Assembly (NCBI GenBank): GCA_012523975.1 | Contig: JAAYSF010000026.1 | Coordinates: 1 to 33,228, forward strand | Reading direction: 5' to 3' | DNA length: 33,228 nucleotides | Source: Veillonellaceae bacterium | Lineage (GTDB): Bacteria; Bacillota; Negativicutes; JAAYSF01 | Shown: positions 1-13,960 of the stretch, one piece after another | How the letters are laid out: each line of letters opens with the position of its first letter | Numbering within the stretch: the first letter of the stretch is position 1 | The notes under the pieces: model-generated | Seen by the model: the letters and a program-made list of their open reading frames with translations, nothing else | The model's database searches: none | What the model was told of the DNA's origin: nothing | Made by a program: the position numbers and the translations under genes

Positions 1-1187
1 ATAAAGAGGATTTCCCCTTTGCGGTTACGGTGGCCTTTGGCCGCCTTATTCTTAGTCATGAACCATAAGCATACAGGGATTTGCGTCGAGTAGAACAGCT
101 GGCCCGGTAAAGTTACAATGCAGTCGACATGATCTTTTTCTACGAGATTTTTTCTAATCTCGGCTTCACTGGTGGTCGAAGTGGACATGGAGCCGTTAGC
201 CAAAACAAAGCCGGCTACACCACTGGGCGCCAAATGCCACAGCATGTGCAGTATCCAGGCATAGTTGGCATTGCCTGCCGGAGGAATGCCGTAGCCGCTC
301 CAGCGCACATCCTCGGTTAATTTCTCGCCGCCCCAGTCGCTGATGTTGAAGGGGGGATTCGCCAAGATATAGTCAGCCTTCAAGCTTTTATGCAGGTCGT
401 TATGGAACGAGTCAGCGTTATATTCGCCGATATTGCCGTCAATACCGCGAATCGCCAGATTCATTTTGCATAGTCGCCAAGTGGTAGGGTTGGATTCCTG
501 CCCGTATACGGCAATATCGCCGATCTTGCCGCTATGAGCCTCAACAAATTTCTCACTCTGGACAAACATGCCGCCTGACCCGCAGCAGGGGTCATAGATC
601 CGGCCTTTGAAGGGCTCAATCATTTCGACTAACAGCTTAACTACGCTTTGCGGAGTGTAGAATTCGCCGCCGTTTTTGCCTTCAGCGCTGGCGAACTTGG
701 ACAAGAAATACTCATAGACTCGGCCAAGGACGTCCTTAGAGCGGCTTTCCTTATCGCCCACCTTGAAGGACAAAATGTCAATCAGTTCGCCCAGGCGGGT
801 CTTGTCCAAAGTCGGTCTGGCATAATCCTTGGGCAGTACGCCTTTTAACTGCTGATTATCTTTTTCGATGGCTACCATGGCATCATCAATGATTTGGCCA
901 ATGGTTGGGCTTTTGGCGTTCTCCTTAATATGCGCCCAACGAGCCTCCGGCGCAACCCAGAAAATAGTGTCCGCCAAGTATTCATCTCTGTCTTCCGGGT
1001 CTGACAGTTGGTCTTGCTTGAGTTCCTCGTATTTTTCCTCAAAGGCGTCGGATATGTATTTTAAAAACAAAAGCCCTAGTACGACATGCTTATATTCGGC
1101 CGCATCCATGTTGTTACGGAGTTTGTCAGCTGCCTGCCACATTTTCTCTTCAAAGCCCAGATTGGCTCCATTTTTCACTTCTTGCAT
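1..1187 (-). CDS. hsdM: Type I restriction-modification methyltransferase HsdM (partial, 3' end outside window)
   Basis: This is the N6-adenine methyltransferase subunit of a type I restriction system, which transfers methyl from AdoMet to adenine in the recognition site. The frame is open from an ATG at 1187 to the window edge (395 codons), so the C-terminus is missing. An HsdM N-terminal helical domain comes first ([16 protein letters not shown], then [15 protein letters not shown]). AdoMet motif I follows as [10 protein letters not shown] and catalytic motif IV as [12 protein letters not shown], so the subunit should be active. The ATG lies 2 bp past the stop of the upstream gene, and a GGAGG inside that gene's 3' end serves as its ribosome site, so the two are translationally coupled. 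The partner hsdR is not in the window and may lie to the left. Confidence 0.95.
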
Positions 1188-1189
1188 CC

Positions 1190-2806
1190 TTAATTCCCTC
1201 CATTGATGAATTGATTATAGATGGCTTCTTGTTCCTTAGCCCAGCGCTGCTCGACTTCTGTGAGAGCTTGCCGGTACGTTTTGTGTTTGGCGTTAAACTC
1301 GTCCACAATCTGCGCTTGCTTTTCCAGCGGCAACAAGGGAATCTCCATCTCGCTAAGATCACTGGGATTGATATTCATAACCGTAGTGCCTCGCTGGAAG
1401 CTCTTAATGAGCATCTGCCCTATAGGGCTTTCCAGAAATATCTTCAGATAGGCTGGCAGGATGCTTGGATTAAGTCGTATGGCGATAATATTAGCCGATG
1501 CAATGACTAGCTGTTCTGTTTCAGGAAATACGGCAACTTTGTTGACAGTCCCCCGACACGTGAGCACCACATCGCCTTTCATCAATTGGTAGCGTTTAAT
1601 CTTTCGCTCTTCTTCCTGGATCGTATCGAGGCTGTCTAGCAGAATTTCGCCGTCCTCCATATTGGATATGTTAAGGACACCGACTTTTCCGGGCTGTATA
1701 TCGTCCTTCATCACCGACTTGCCCCGGAAAACTTCCGCGACCTCTTTTAACTTGGCCTTCGCTAGGCTTGATGCCTTGAATCGTTGGATTGTTTCGTGAT
1801 CCTCCGCAAAGAACAGGTCGATGCGCCAGTCTTCCAACTGCTGAAACTCGTTATACGGCTTATGGCTGGTCTGCGTAAGAATGAGCTTTGACTCTTCCTC
1901 TGCCATCCTGCCAATGGCAACAGCTTGACCAGTCGTCCTTGACAGGGTAATTAGGTATGTTTTTATACTGGTAAAGGGACGAAATATTCCTTCCGGAAGA
2001 GCGTATATGGTATCCATATGATAATGCTCTACGAGCCAGCGGCGAAATTCTAGTACAGGACCACTGGCAAACGTAACCCGCGCAGGCACGATCGTAATCA
2101 GCCGGCCGCCATCCTGAAGGTAACCGACAAGATTCTCTATTGCGATACATTCAGAATCACGGGTTAGAAAATTACCTCCTGCCTCTTCCGGAGTTAACCT
2201 GCTGCCAAAGGACGGCAGACAAATAATAGTGCTGAATTTTTCCTGGAGCAGCAGTTCCCGGTAAATGGACTGATTGACAACCCTTACATTACTAACGTCA
2301 GAAAATACTGTGTTAAAGAGCAGATAGGTAATATACTTTTCTGTAACGAGCGTAAATCTTACGCCCGGGTTGGATTGGATAAAATCAACCAGTTTGGTAC
2401 TGAATTTCTCCGCTTCAGCAACTAATACAGACTCTGAACCAGTAGGTAACCGCTTCGCTATATATTCAACCAAACACTCTGGTGCCATCATTACACCTGT
2501 GCGATCATTCCTGTTGAGCTGTACCAGCAGTTCTAACAGATCCAGCTTGTCATCCAGGCTGTACAATTGATGAAAAAACTCTCTATCACCCGGAAAATGA
2601 CCCAGCCTATTTTGCTCAGATACCTCTTTCATCACTTGAAATAAGCCTTCTTGATCATCTGGTGAGTCAGAGAAGCTGAGCCCCTGCTTTTGTACATGCC
2701 GACGTACCAGGGCCACCCTAGCAGCCTCCAGCAGAATTTGTTCCTTGTTATCAAGACCTCTTATGTAGAATATTTCATAGAATGACTGTATGCTACGGGA
2801 CTTCAA
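1190..2806 (-). CDS. Degenerate N6-methylase domain fused to a single-TRD HsdS-like specificity domain
   Basis: The protein has 538 residues. Residues 1-90 are helical. Residues about 100-300 resemble the HsdM methylase fold ([15 protein letters not shown] matches the usual YTPxxVVxLM entry; later [12 protein letters not shown] and [20 protein letters not shown]). However, the AdoMet motif position reads [10 protein letters not shown] instead of DPxCGSGG, and the NPPF position reads CLPSFG. The methylase is therefore probably inactive. Residues about 350-525 resemble one half of an HsdS subunit: a target-recognition domain ([59 protein letters not shown]) followed by a helical coil. The start is TTG at 2806 with a GGGGGG site 5 bases upstream; the only nearer ATG runs straight into TAA. 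It is the first gene of an operon with hsdM. It probably serves as the specificity subunit, perhaps as a dimer; the role of the dead domain is unknown. Confidence 0.8.
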
Positions 2807-2817
2807 TTACATCCCCC

Positions 2818-2840
2818 CAATTATGAGTACACCATAATTG
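2818..2840. promoter_or_regulatory. Perfect 8-bp inverted repeat next to the ribosome site of the restriction operon
   Basis: CAATTATG and CATAATTG are exact inverted copies separated by 7 bases. The left arm abuts the GGGGGG ribosome-binding site (2812-2817, minus strand) of the 538-residue gene. It could be an operator for an autoregulator, or an RNA hairpin next to the ribosome site. The repeat is directly visible; its function is inferred. Confidence 0.45.
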
Positions 2841-3144
2841 TAGTTTAATTATTTTAGTATCGTCAATACCAAAATACATTTTTTAGTTTATTTACAGCCG
2901 AATCTTACCGAAATTTTTATCTTCTGGCTCAATTCGCCGTTTTTATATAATAGGCCAATTTTGTCCCTTTTTTCTGGCTCTACCTAGTTAAATCCAGTAA
3001 ACATGCGGGTTCGGAGGATCGTTCACCAAAATTCTATTTTTTTCCACACAGAAAGGACAGAGTTAAATTACCACTTGATTTCCCGCATTACATATGCATT
3101 TTCTCTGGGCTGCTGCTATCTCTTGCAACAGTGGTAGTATTATG

Positions 3145-3199
3145 GAAAAACAAAAACCTCATTTAGCCGGATTTACTGCTCCGAAATCTAAATGAGGTT
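3145..3199 (-). terminator. Rho-independent terminator of the HUH Rep gene
   Basis: A perfect 12-bp inverted repeat (AACCTCATTTAG / CTAAATGAGGTT) begins 8 bases after the Rep stop codon. On the minus strand it is followed by TTTGTTTTT. It closes the HTH-Rep transcription unit. Confidence 0.85.
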
Positions 3200-3206
3200 G
3201 CTGATT

Positions 3207-4178
3207 CTATGCTGCTGGGTTCTGTAACTTTTCCGGTTGGGAAGCAGGAGGCCCATATAGCAGAGCCTGTTCTGGGTTAAGGCAAAACTCATAGTGACGT
3301 TTTGATTCAATATAATCTAGTCCAGTACAGTGGTAGCTGAATATCTCTTCTAGCTCCGCGCCCAGACCATGTTGTTGAATTAGCTCCATTGCATCTTCTC
3401 CACGCAGTTTCTGGAATGGCTCTAAATTTTTACTCTTTCGATAATATTGTTTATACTTCATATCAGGACATGCTGCCTTCTTGCTCAGATAACCAGCAAG
3501 ACAAGCCCCTAAATTTCCTCCACCACTCAGCGGCTTCTGATGCAAAATGCCGTGAGGCCACATGTATGTTAACGCCGCTTTCTTGCTCTTAACAACCCCA
3601 GCCTCAATAAGCGGCTTGACTTCGAAAACTGTTTCTGCAAGGCGTTGATTAACAACTGCGTGCAAGTGGTATCCCCCTCTTTCGTGAGGCTCAATAACAG
3701 CTACGAACTTCATGCCATTATATTTACGCTGCAGTTCTTTAAGAAAACGTTTAAAGTGTTCTTCCGCTTCCAGGAAACCAATAGCGTTCGTATGTCTAAA
3801 GGTAAGCGAAATCAACTGCGCTGTGTGAGGATCAAAATTCTGGTTAATTAGTAGCCTAATTTGCCGCACGTTTGCTCTAGTCCGATAACGCTGTTGCTTT
3901 TCCTTGCCTACAGACCAATCTTTACGCAAGTCGGCACTTTCTTCTGAGCCGCTGAAAATCACATCTTCCTCGTAATCGTGCAAAAACGTTTCACCTTTAC
4001 TCCGCTTCGGGCCTTTGGAACTCTTAACACCTGGTAGAGGGAGATTCCTGCCGTAAATATCAACCTCGACGTAATTTCGAGCTACTAGAACACACAGGTT
4101 AGAACCAAAGCTGTTTACGTTGATATATCGTAGGGCTTCACGAAAAGGAACATCGGCCCTGCATAGTTTAGAACTCAT
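3207..4178 (-). CDS. HUH-family rolling-circle replication initiator-like endonuclease
   Basis: The protein has 323 residues and carries the three motifs of rolling-circle Rep/relaxase-type enzymes. Motif 1 is QLISLTFRHT near residues 121-130. The metal-binding HUH motif is GGYHLHAVVN (H171, H173). The candidate catalytic tyrosine is Y230 in AGYLSKK. Enzymes of this family nick one strand at an origin and stay bound through the tyrosine; the spacing fits the phage G2P/ORF2-type Rep group. Start ATG at 4178 has AGGAG upstream. It lies downstream of a small HTH gene and is followed by a strong terminator. Because an integrase sits on the same element, the likely role is replication of an excised circular form, but mobilisation is possible. 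Family call is firm, role is inferred. Confidence 0.85.
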   Translation of the reverse strand: MSSKLCRADVPFREALRYINVNSFGSNLCVLVARNYVEVDIYGRNLPLPGVKSSKGPKRSKGETFLHDYEEDVIFSGSEESADLRKDWSVGKEKQQRYRTRANVRQIRLLINQNFDPHTAQLISLTFRHTNAIGFLEAEEHFKRFLKELQRKYNGMKFVAVIEPHERGGYHLHAVVNQRLAETVFEVKPLIEAGVVKSKKAALTYMWPHGILHQKPLSGGGNLGACLAGYLSKKAACPDMKYKQYYRKSKNLEPFQKLRGEDAMELIQQHGLGAELEEIFSYHCTGLDYIESKRHYEFCLNPEQALLYGPPASQPEKLQNPAA

Positions 4179-4323
4179 TGTTAATCACTCCTATTTTGCT
4201 GGGCTGAATTGGCCCAAAGTATGAAGTTCACTCAAGTATATATATGGTTAAGCTCAATAAATTTTCTGATAATTGTCCCAATGTCGTAACTTATTACGCG
4301 ATAGCTCTCTGCAAATTTTATAG

Positions 4324-4363
4324 CATAAGCGACTTTGTTCTTCGCAAAACAGAGCCACTTATG
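4324..4363. repeat. 16-bp imperfect inverted repeat between the HTH and Rep genes
   Basis: The arms 4324-4339 and 4348-4363 pair at 13 of 16 positions, with the remaining three being G-T type, around an 8-base loop (CTTCGCAA). There is no T-run on either strand directly after it, so it is not an ordinary terminator. It sits just upstream of a rolling-circle Rep gene and is a candidate origin hairpin or regulatory RNA structure. Confidence 0.45.
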
Positions 4364-4384
4364 TAAAAATCCACAAAACGCCAT

Positions 4385-4804
4385 CTAAATGACTGATCGT
4401 TTTCTTACTGAATGCATCTGTGGAGCCTTAGGAATTGACCATCGATAACCGTCTATTTCAACAGTTATGCTGCTTGATCGCAATTGGCTGCGTAACTTTA
4501 ATACCTCAGCAGTCAATTCCTCATTGACCATCATCGCTTCCTGATAGTCCAGGACATTCTCATACGATTTTATCAGTAAAACCCGATCTCGTTCTCGTAC
4601 ACGCTCACCTTTCTCCAATCGGCGCAATCTTCCGATACTAACCCCCATCTTCATCGCTACATAAGTCGCTGTCAGATGAAGCTTTAATCGTCGTTTCTCT
4701 AGCGCAGCCCCCTCTTCGAGCCATTGCAATTGAAGCCTTTCGGCAAGATGTTGCTGTTCCTTTCTTCGTTCTGCCTGCATTAATGCGATTTCTACCAAAC
4801 ACAT
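4385..4804 (-). CDS. Small helix-turn-helix (XRE-like) DNA-binding protein
   Basis: The protein has 139 residues. The central part (LHLTATYVAMKMGVSIGRLRRLEKGERV) has the shape of an XRE-type helix-turn-helix, in which the recognition helix is followed by the typical RLEKG turn. The N-terminus is a charged, glutamine-rich helix (QAERRKEQQHLAERLQLQWLEE) that could form a coiled coil. Another helical stretch follows the HTH (QEAMMVNEELTAEVLKLRSQL). Start ATG at 4804 has GGAGG 8 bases upstream. It is co-oriented with, and upstream of, the Rep gene, so it is probably a regulator or accessory replication factor. No specific family is recognised. Confidence 0.7.
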   Translation of the reverse strand: MCLVEIALMQAERRKEQQHLAERLQLQWLEEGAALEKRRLKLHLTATYVAMKMGVSIGRLRRLEKGERVRERDRVLLIKSYENVLDYQEAMMVNEELTAEVLKLRSQLRSSSITVEIDGYRWSIPKAPQMHSVRKRSVI

Positions 4805-6864: not shown

Positions 6865-7140
6865 ATGAACACGAGCAAAATTAATAACATAACTACAGCT
6901 GTCATTAATCAGATCGCCGCGCCCACAAACGGTGTCGGTGAAGTTCGTCCTCTGGGAGATGCGCGTCATATAATATTTAACAATACCGTCTCTCACAGCA
7001 CCATTCTGCGCATGGCAAAGCGCGGTGAATTTCCTGCCTTCAAGTTACTTGGTGGTAAGTGGTACTTCATAGTAGAGATTGCCCAAGCTTGGCTTGCCGA
7101 AATATCAATGTCGCAATTCAATTATAGGAAGGGGGCGTAA
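6865..7140 (+). CDS. Excisionase-like / MerR-type HTH DNA-binding protein
   Basis: The 91-residue protein ends in a winged-helix excisionase domain: VSHSTILRMAKRGEFPAFKL, then GGKWYFIVEIAQAWLAE. This is the typical pattern of a short HTH followed by a K/R-W wing and a helix ending in W-L. The N-terminal 40 residues are not conserved in any way I recognise. GGGAG precedes ATG 6865. The gene ends 4 bases before the integrase start, so the two are one transcript. The likely role is directing excision of the element or regulating int; confidence in the fold is higher than in the role. Confidence 0.75.
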   Translation: MNTSKINNITTAVINQIAAPTNGVGEVRPLGDARHIIFNNTVSHSTILRMAKRGEFPAFKLLGGKWYFIVEIAQAWLAEISMSQFNYRKGA

Positions 7141-7144
7141 CCGC

Positions 7145-8419
7145 ATGAAAAGAAAAAACAAAAGTCCAGAGCTTGGTCACATAGACTGGCGTAAATCAAG
7201 CGCCAGAATAATTTTCTATCACAAAGGTGAGCGGTACGTTAGCCCCTCTCTTGGTGCCGTGACGGAGGAAGAGGCTGAAATCGCTCGTCTACAATTCATT
7301 GTCGACGTTAAGAGCGGAAAACTTCTGCCTCAGTCAAAGCAAAAACCTTCTAGTACTCAAGAATTGACCTTTAACCATTTTGCTGCTCTATGGCTCAAAG
7401 ACCGCGAAACGACAGTCAGCGCTAAGACCTTTCATGAGGATAACCGGCGTCTAGAATCACGAATCTTACCTGTGCTCGGAGCGAAGATTTTGGCATCCTT
7501 AACTGGATACGACTTAGACCAATTTATTAAAAAGACGCTAGCTCAGCCTTGGCAAAACGGAGATAAGTCGTTTAAACCACTTGGCAATCAGTCCCGTAAA
7601 CACTACTTCCGGCAATTGCATACTATGTTTGAGCAAGCCAAAGCATGGGGATACTTGTCAAAAAACCCTATGGACGGATTAAAAGCGCCCTCCGCTAAGA
7701 ATAAGTCGACCCTTTACTATTCAATTGAAGAACTTGCTGCCTTTTGGCGAGTATGCCCCACTTCACATTCTCAAAGAGCTTTGCTAATTCACGTAGCCTG
7801 GACACTTGGTCTGCGACGCGAGGAAATTGCCGGTCTGCGTTGGTCAGACCTTGATCTAGATACAAACACTGCAACGATCCAGAACTGTAGAGTATATATT
7901 CCACGTAAAGGTATTATAAGTAAAGGGCCAAAGAACGAGAAACCTCGTGTTATTGGACTTTCGCAACAAGTTAGCGAGATGCTTGCAGACTATAAAATAG
8001 ACTATGACAAGCACAAAACGCTCTGGAAAAAACAATGGCTGGGACAAGATCTAATATTCGTCAAGCTGAATGACAAAGGAGCCCCCTATAATCCATCTAC
8101 CATTGACCACTGGCTTGACGACTACCTGAAGAACAATAAACTTCCCCACATTACCTTACACGGGTTTCGCCACACAATGGCAACTTTGCTCCATGAAGCC
8201 GGAATGGATACTGTAACCGTAAGTGAATTAATGGGGCACTCCACAAAACAATCAAATGTGCTCGGCGGCTTCGGAATGGCACCTCGGGTAACGCGTACAT
8301 ACCTGCACAAATCAAAAAACGCTGCTGCAAAAATGTCAGAAGCCATGACTAAAATATTTGATCAAGTCATGCGCCACAAAGCAGAATCTTCCCAAATATC
8401 TTCCCAAGGGAATAAATGA
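7145..8419 (+). CDS. int: Site-specific tyrosine recombinase (integrase)
   Basis: The 424-residue enzyme has all catalytic residues of phage/ICE integrases: Arg in LGLRREEIAGLRW (R224), a Lys in the beta-hairpin segment around SKGPKNEK (about 260-266), the H-x-x-R box LHGFRHTMATLLHEAG (H339, R342), the second His in LMGHS (H365), and nucleophile Y386 in RTYLHKS. The N-terminal part (residues 10-60) resembles an arm-binding domain, followed by a SAM-like core-binding domain. The start is placed at ATG 7145 with GGAAGGGGG upstream; an earlier in-frame ATG lies inside the excisionase gene. It ends 57 bases from the 3' end of tRNA-Sec, the classic arrangement for an element integrated into a tRNA gene. 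Confidence 0.95.
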   Translation: MKRKNKSPELGHIDWRKSSARIIFYHKGERYVSPSLGAVTEEEAEIARLQFIVDVKSGKLLPQSKQKPSSTQELTFNHFAALWLKDRETTVSAKTFHEDNRRLESRILPVLGAKILASLTGYDLDQFIKKTLAQPWQNGDKSFKPLGNQSRKHYFRQLHTMFEQAKAWGYLSKNPMDGLKAPSAKNKSTLYYSIEELAAFWRVCPTSHSQRALLIHVAWTLGLRREEIAGLRWSDLDLDTNTATIQNCRVYIPRKGIISKGPKNEKPRVIGLSQQVSEMLADYKIDYDKHKTLWKKQWLGQDLIFVKLNDKGAPYNPSTIDHWLDDYLKNNKLPHITLHGFRHTMATLLHEAGMDTVTVSELMGHSTKQSNVLGGFGMAPRVTRTYLHKSKNAAAKMSEAMTKIFDQVMRHKAESSQISSQGNK

Positions 8420-13224: not shown

Positions 13225-13960
13225 TAGTCATTCCACCTTTCCACCAGGCTTGAATTAAGCCTTGCTCACTGTAACGCAGTAGCGCATTATAGACGACTAC
13301 GCTAAGCAAGCCCTCGCTAATTGCCAGCGGAATCTGAGTTATTGAAAAAACACCGAGAAATTTAGTAAATGACAGCCATACCCCTCCGACTGGATCGGGA
13401 AATGCCCATGCTAGCTGAGCGGCCGTCACCATGTATGTAGTCCAATCGCCGCAAGCAGCAGCCAGAAAGACAGCTATTTTTTCTGAAAAGCCCATCGAGC
13501 GGCATACCTTGAACAAGCCCCAAGCCATAAATGCTCCAGCGACACCCATCGAGAATGTATTGGCTCCCCAGGTGCTAATGCCACCATGGGCTAACAAGAG
13601 CGCTTGAAAGACCAATACAATGCCGCTTAGCACGCTTGATACTGCCGGCCCAAATAGGATTGCGCTTAGACCAACCCCGGTAGCATGCGAGCTTGAACCG
13701 GTAACCGAGGGAATTTTAAGTGCCGAAAGCACAAAAATAAACGCGGCAGCTAGGCCAAGCAGCAGTTTTCTTTCCGGGTAATTCTTTAAAGTAGCGCCGA
13801 TTTGCCTAATCCCTAAGGCGATAAACGGAGCTACAACCGCCATCCACAAAAAAGCATGACTTTGCGGCAAAAAGCCCTCCATGATGTGCATGGCATGACC
13901 AACAGCCGGCATACATGCACTGACAGCTACGAAATAAACAACTAACCAGGTAATTTTCAT
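13214..13960 (-). CDS. cbiM: Cobalt ECF transporter substrate-binding protein CbiM
   Basis: The 248-residue membrane protein has a signal peptide ending in GHA, which would expose MHIMEGFLP as the mature N-terminus; the first Met and His of that sequence coordinate the metal in the CbiM/NikM family. Several membrane segments follow, together with the family stretch SSHATGVGLSAILFGP. GGAAGGGG precedes ATG 13960. As first gene of the cluster behind a cobalamin riboswitch it is more likely a cobalt than a nickel transporter. Confidence 0.95.
   Translation of the reverse strand: MKITWLVVYFVAVSACMPAVGHAMHIMEGFLPQSHAFLWMAVVAPFIALGIRQIGATLKNYPERKLLLGLAAAFIFVLSALKIPSVTGSSSHATGVGLSAILFGPAVSSVLSGIVLVFQALLLAHGGISTWGANTFSMGVAGAFMAWGLFKVCRSMGFSEKIAVFLAAACGDWTTYMVTAAQLAWAFPDPVGGVWLSFTKFLGVFSITQIPLAISEGLLSVVVYNALLRYSEQGLIQAWWKGGMTNGK

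Follow-up and report, generated by a model that had tools for sequence, protein, structure and literature searches.

The pseudo-methylase gene and its operon

In the window (the whole 33,228-nucleotide stretch of DNA analyzed here), we confirmed as real an open reading frame of 538 aa on the minus strand, with a TTG start at 2806 and a stop at 1190, directly upstream of an hsdM gene. We call its product PSM, for pseudo-methyltransferase fused to a target-recognition domain (TRD). The coding features of the locus are:

1190 to 2806, minus strand: PSM, the pseudo-methyltransferase-TRD fusion, 538 aa (TTG start at 2806, stop codon at 1190-1192; 94% identical to the homologue in locus L003)
1802 to 2491, minus strand: HsdM-like domain, residues 106-335, without motif I (LVAEAEK in its place) and without motif IV (CLPSFG in its place), from the AF2 model, Foldseek and the HsdM alignment
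1307 to 1771, minus strand: single TRD, residues 346-500, Methylase_S, the most conserved part of the family, from Pfam, Foldseek and family comparison (34% identical to Esub1, PDB 8vsq)
1202 to 1327, minus strand: one long C-terminal helix, residues 494-535, predicted (AF2), the presumed dimerization helix of a half-S
2813 to 2818, minus strand: ribosome-binding site GGGGGG of the PSM gene, about 7 nt upstream of the TTG start, read from the sequence
3 to 1187, minus strand: hsdM with intact catalytic motifs (DPCCGSGG, NPPF), starting 2 nt after the PSM stop and cut by the contig end, from open reading frame reading, Pfam and alignment

Pfam matches in PSM were limited to Methylase_S (residues 351-504, E 1.5e-13), N6_Mtase (confined to residues 224-294, E 1e-5) and a weak Eco57I hit, and the Pfam search gave no match to an HTH family. 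In the alignment with HsdM, motif I (DPCCGSGG) falls in a 9-residue deletion of PSM, and NPPF reads CLPSFG. Foldseek matched an AF2 model of moderate confidence (pLDDT 71.9, pTM 0.62) to 7eew, CamA, TaqI and PacII M1; the last three, together with the N6_Mtase segment, place a Rossmann-type methyltransferase fold in PSM. These results bear out the initial annotation, which had described a dead methylase domain fused to one TRD: motif I and NPPF are gone, a single Methylase_S domain and one helix replace the two-TRD layout with conserved helices of HsdS, and the structural match to methyltransferase folds, named in advance as the check that could overturn this description, was found.

The window's operon is truncated at the contig end, and a search of the window's genome assembly did not find the remainder; its HsdS and HsdR are taken from L003, a near-identical locus of a Negativicutes MAG. 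The complete L003 operon encodes PSM (538 aa), HsdM (512 aa), a RhuM-like protein (331 aa), HsdS with two TRDs (435 aa) and HsdR (1058 aa), which places the fusion beside both hsdM and hsdR, where the initial annotation had proposed to look for it. L003 carries a repeat of ~180 nt (about 13257-13441) between its hsdM and RhuM-like genes; copies with 72-91% identity recur widely in the window's genome. Upstream of the operon in the window, we noted by eye a protein that resembles rolling-circle (HUH-like) replication proteins (3207-4178; GGYHLHAVV) and a tyrosine integrase (7079-8419), which likely belong to an integrated element. Synonymous divergence between the window and L003 is 0.14 in PSM vs 0.86 in hsdM; exchange of PSM together with its promoter, independently of hsdM, is the probable cause.

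Homologues of PSM sharing 33-44% identity turned up in 8 further genomes, out of 398 sampled in the phylum, and in IMG/VR contigs; the plasmids and phages of annotated collections held no full-length match. In most homologous loci hsdM directly follows PSM. PSM is accompanied in L044 and L064-L067 by an ADP-ribosylglycohydrolase-HsdM fusion, with a second HsdM where the locus is complete. This ~805 aa protein, named from its sequence alone, begins M[LI]GAIIGDIVGSRFEW and stands after PSM in L044, L064-L067 and L142, usually followed by the second HsdM. In L124/L125 (in longer form L142/L141), hsdM is divergent from PSM and hsdR comes after it. Locus L042 (4823-6418) has an intact PSM gene and operator before a wrecked restriction-modification operon that retains hsdS and hsdR fragments and no hsdM. 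With L042 lacking hsdM and L124/L125 rearranged, PSM is the only gene common to all loci, and it is missing from most hsdM loci of the same subfamily.

Conservation of the dead methylase and of the TRD

Motif I and NPPF are missing in 16 of 16 aligned PSM proteins and present in the adjacent HsdM, and at the place of motif I the 16 proteins share L[IV]xE[AG]E. Loss of the motifs in all 16 homologues implies that PSM is not one decayed copy and, together with a dN/dS of 0.20 between the window and L003, which indicates purifying selection across the protein, rules out a decaying pseudogene. In the same comparison every PSM domain is under purifying selection (dN/dS 0.12-0.24).

Conservation is highest in the TRD. 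Across seven related operons, mean identity is 67% for the PSM TRD and 46% for the pseudo-methylase, and in the HsdS proteins of the same operons it is 24% and 18% for the two TRDs and 77% and 64% for the conserved regions. Over 15 PSM proteins, 57% of the TRD is kept vs 39% of the pseudo-methylase; the TRD accounts for 33 of the 57 invariant residues. HsdS TRDs diverge because their targets change; the PSM TRD lacks this hypervariability between systems (67% vs 18-24%), and its steadiness, unlike that of HsdS TRDs, points to one fixed target.

This pattern bears on the proposals of the initial annotation that PSM is a specificity protein of type I or stands in for one M subunit, in which case it would set the target of a restriction complex. 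The domain make-up of an M-half-S fusion speaks for such a role. However, the operon already has its own two-TRD HsdS and an intact HsdM (L003), some loci carry two HsdM genes besides PSM, and the PSM TRDs are conserved where those of HsdS are divergent, which together rule out PSM as the S subunit or as a second M. Most related operons and hsdM loci also do without PSM. We give these proposals hardly any weight.

A palindrome in the promoter of PSM operons

Upstream of the PSM gene, the window contains the following features:

2853 to 2873, no strand assigned: putative palindromic operator TTTGGTA-TTGACGA-TACTAAA (read on the minus strand), with an imperfect extension over 2850-2876, from a motif scan; the genome assembly as a whole holds no other exact N7 site
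2861 to 2866, minus strand: -35 box TTGACG, within the operator spacer, from promoter comparison and sigma-70 scoring
2837 to 2842, minus strand: -10 box TACAAT, 18 nt from the -35 box, from promoter comparison and sigma-70 scoring

The palindrome TTTRGTA-N6/7-TACYAAA is present in the promoter of 17 of 17 PSM loci (16 independent, since the window and L003 are near-identical), with an exact match in 16 and a single mismatch in one. The consensus comes from 14 of these loci. Among the first 14 upstream regions, 12 had an exact site and one a site with one mismatch, compared with a mean of 0 exact sites in shuffles; in the remaining one, L064, the exact site lies further upstream, and an exact site is also present in L045. 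Half-site columns carry about 1.7 bits vs 0.2 in the flanks, and in 13 of 15 upstream regions a motif-free search ranked the same N6 palindrome first. Shuffles, motif-free search and half-site information together rule out a chance palindrome. At up to 2 mismatches, 0.69 sites are expected in the window alone, which is not improbable, and the case therefore rests on exactness, position and family. In L039 and L041, the operator forms the core of longer perfect palindromes, with 19- and 16-bp arms.

Outside PSM promoters the site is rare. In 26 hsdM loci of the same subfamily that lack PSM, no copy with at most one mismatch was found. Each of six PSM genomes holds one or two exact N6 sites, and the window's genome holds one exact N7 site. 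A DNA-only scan of all IMG/VR (2.9 million viral contigs) for TTTRGTATTGACATACYAAA, a single form of the site, hit two loci, each with a previously unseen PSM gene 45 bp downstream of it. The TTTGGTATTNNAATACCAAA pattern gave 9 loci over viral contigs, one being the known PSM locus L067; most of the remaining hits fall within unrelated ORFs, and this short form therefore has background. What characterizes the controller class, a gene in a restriction-modification operon together with a candidate cognate operator in the operon promoter, is found in all 17 loci. As PSM is tied to the site by association alone, the palindrome might instead be bound by another host regulator, PSM being a passenger. 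We regard this as highly improbable, because the site is near-unique per genome across distant genera, does not occur in those operons of the subfamily that lack PSM, and has PSM alone as its constant neighbor.

The palindrome is also in register with the promoter. Within bases 1-4400 the highest-scoring sigma-70 match is the promoter of the window's operon (10 of 12), and in nine loci, including the window, the -35 hexamer (TTGACA/TTGACG) sits inside the palindrome spacer, with the -10 box 17-18 nt on, an arrangement that suggests occlusion and hence repression. In 8 of 17 loci the palindrome lies upstream of the -35 box, centered at about -53 to -62. Such a position could serve repression or activation, and the sign of regulation may thus differ between PSM members. 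Among the roles that the initial annotation had considered, a regulator is the one favored by an operator found in 17 of 17 PSM loci and in register with the promoter.

The palindromic site that the initial annotation predicted thus exists in all PSM loci, not as the methylome motif it expected but as an essentially unique promoter operator. PSM and the live HsdM could nonetheless make up an extra methyltransferase, or together with HsdR a restriction complex, with RGTA-N6/7-TACY as its fixed specificity; the promoter copy would then be a methylation site and the regulation epigenetic. The operator does have the shape of a type I site with an adenine in each half, and the M and half-S domains are kept, the dead M domain under purifying selection. 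However, the full conserved site, with 14 specified bases and 1-2 copies per genome, is too rare for self-marking, and PSM has its own M domain and occurs without intact hsdM (L042). We consider such an enzyme unlikely.

Seven TRD positions, R405, K468, R472 and N480 among them, differ consistently between users of TTTAGTA and of TTTGGTA. In L125/L142 an A-type site goes with A-type residues, although the pseudo-methylase is nearer the G-site group. This tracking of the half-site base by TRD residues, including the L125/L142 case, is suggestive only, because the site groups are also phylogenetic.

A putative autoregulator and its nearest known systems

From the anatomy, dead motifs, conserved TRD, operator, promoter register and co-occurrence observed above, we infer that PSM binds the operator, binds it as a dimer and represses. 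In our favored reading, to which we assign a probability of roughly 0.8, PSM is a homodimeric M-half-S fusion that has lost methylation and acts as a transcriptional autoregulator repressing its type I operon; it very probably binds the palindromic switch in its own operon's promoter. PSM would have derived from an HsdM-half-HsdS fusion after loss of the catalytic motifs. Two chains would dimerize through their C-terminal helices, like half-S subunits, the two TRDs would read TTTRGTA on opposite strands across the 6-7 bp spacer, and the dead M domains may have been retained as a DNA-holding clamp. In the window, the PSM complex would cover the -35 box and so repress the promoter of PSM-hsdM-(RhuM)-hsdS-hsdR, a negative feedback.

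A second family comprises M-TRD fusions of 600-640 aa with degenerate motifs and a single TRD, mostly located before hsdM-S-R (L046-L048, L050, L051, L093 on a Lactococcus plasmid and L094 in Salimicrobium); L052 is also counted in this set (L046-L052, L093, L094). By alignment, none of the family has an intact NPPF. Promoter palindromes are present in L052 (TTGACA in the center, 15-bp arms), L046, L093 (TTAGTA-N7-TACTAA) and L050 (TTTAGTA-N7-TACTAAA), and none was seen in the other loci of the family; we treat these palindromes as a lead, not a result. L093 (6729-16462, plasmid pJM2A) comprises the M-TRD gene, hsdM, hsdS, xerA, two more partial hsdS and hsdR, and looks like a shuffling S locus.

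More tentatively, and with considerable doubt, dead M-half-S fusions (PSM and the 600-640 aa family) might be recurrent transcription factors before type I operons and also sensors: since they retain the shape with which a type I methyltransferase holds DNA, phage DNA-mimic anti-restriction proteins could pull PSM off its operator and expression of the defense operon would rise. The closest solved TRD to that of PSM is Esub1 (PDB 8vsq; 8vsr with Prx), with 34% identity over ~190 residues, and 8vsr is titled 'Co-crystal structure of Prx with Esub1'. Relatives of Esub1 were searched for in viral contigs and none was found. The Prx of that entry may correspond to paratox, a protein of streptococcal phages, in which case a PSM-like TRD is bound by a phage protein.

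Transcriptional control of type I restriction operons is poorly known, RptR (2025) being a recent example. The novelty of PSM would be a putative control protein made from the enzyme itself and not an HTH protein, and our reading supplies an exact putative operator that is directly testable. If it is true, TRDs can act as transcription-factor DNA-binding domains; it would also give a reason for dead methylase-TRD genes to stand before hsdM, where they carry the annotation 'N-6 DNA methylase' or 'subunit S', and such genes should then not be counted as methyltransferases in methylome prediction. In the literature searched, we found no description of a TRD-based regulator.

By domain order, PSM resembles engineered HsdM-half-HsdS fusions (M-half-Sfus), which dimerize and read palindromes (PMC6158711), as do homodimers of half-S subunits, whether natural or truncated, for example NgoAV and EcoDXXI truncations (PMC3874165); in both, the dimer reads a palindromic bipartite site. 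DNA is bound by the trimer, not by S or M alone (PMC3874165). These proteins are active methyltransferases, whereas PSM is without motif I or IV; by its sequence, PSM is a natural dead form of an HsdM-half-HsdS fusion. Its best whole-chain Foldseek match is the intact methyltransferase of Vibrio vulnificus (PDB 7eew), and M1 of PacII M1M2S (7vru/7vs4, PMC9613975) matches its methyltransferase part. PacII M1 and M2, of the non-canonical type I (M1M2S) class, are live methyltransferases with NPPF and NPPY in a trimer of two M and one S (PMC9613975), whereas PSM has neither motif.

RptR is a small repressor encoded by the first gene of type I restriction-modification operons, a homodimer of a 79-aa helical HTH-like protein (PMC12255303). 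As in our reading of PSM, for which binding and dimerization are predicted, it is a first operon gene product and a homodimer that represses its own promoter through a palindrome, the site being conserved with the gene; unlike PSM, it is unrelated to the restriction-modification enzyme, and its site consists of TAGCTA repeats on the -10 box (PMC12255303). Type II C proteins are likewise autoregulators encoded by restriction-modification systems and act on promoter operators (PMC3874152), but they are small HTH proteins, whereas PSM has 538 aa and a TRD. RptR and the type II C proteins would thus be functionally nearest to PSM, which appears to be alike in role and not in protein family.
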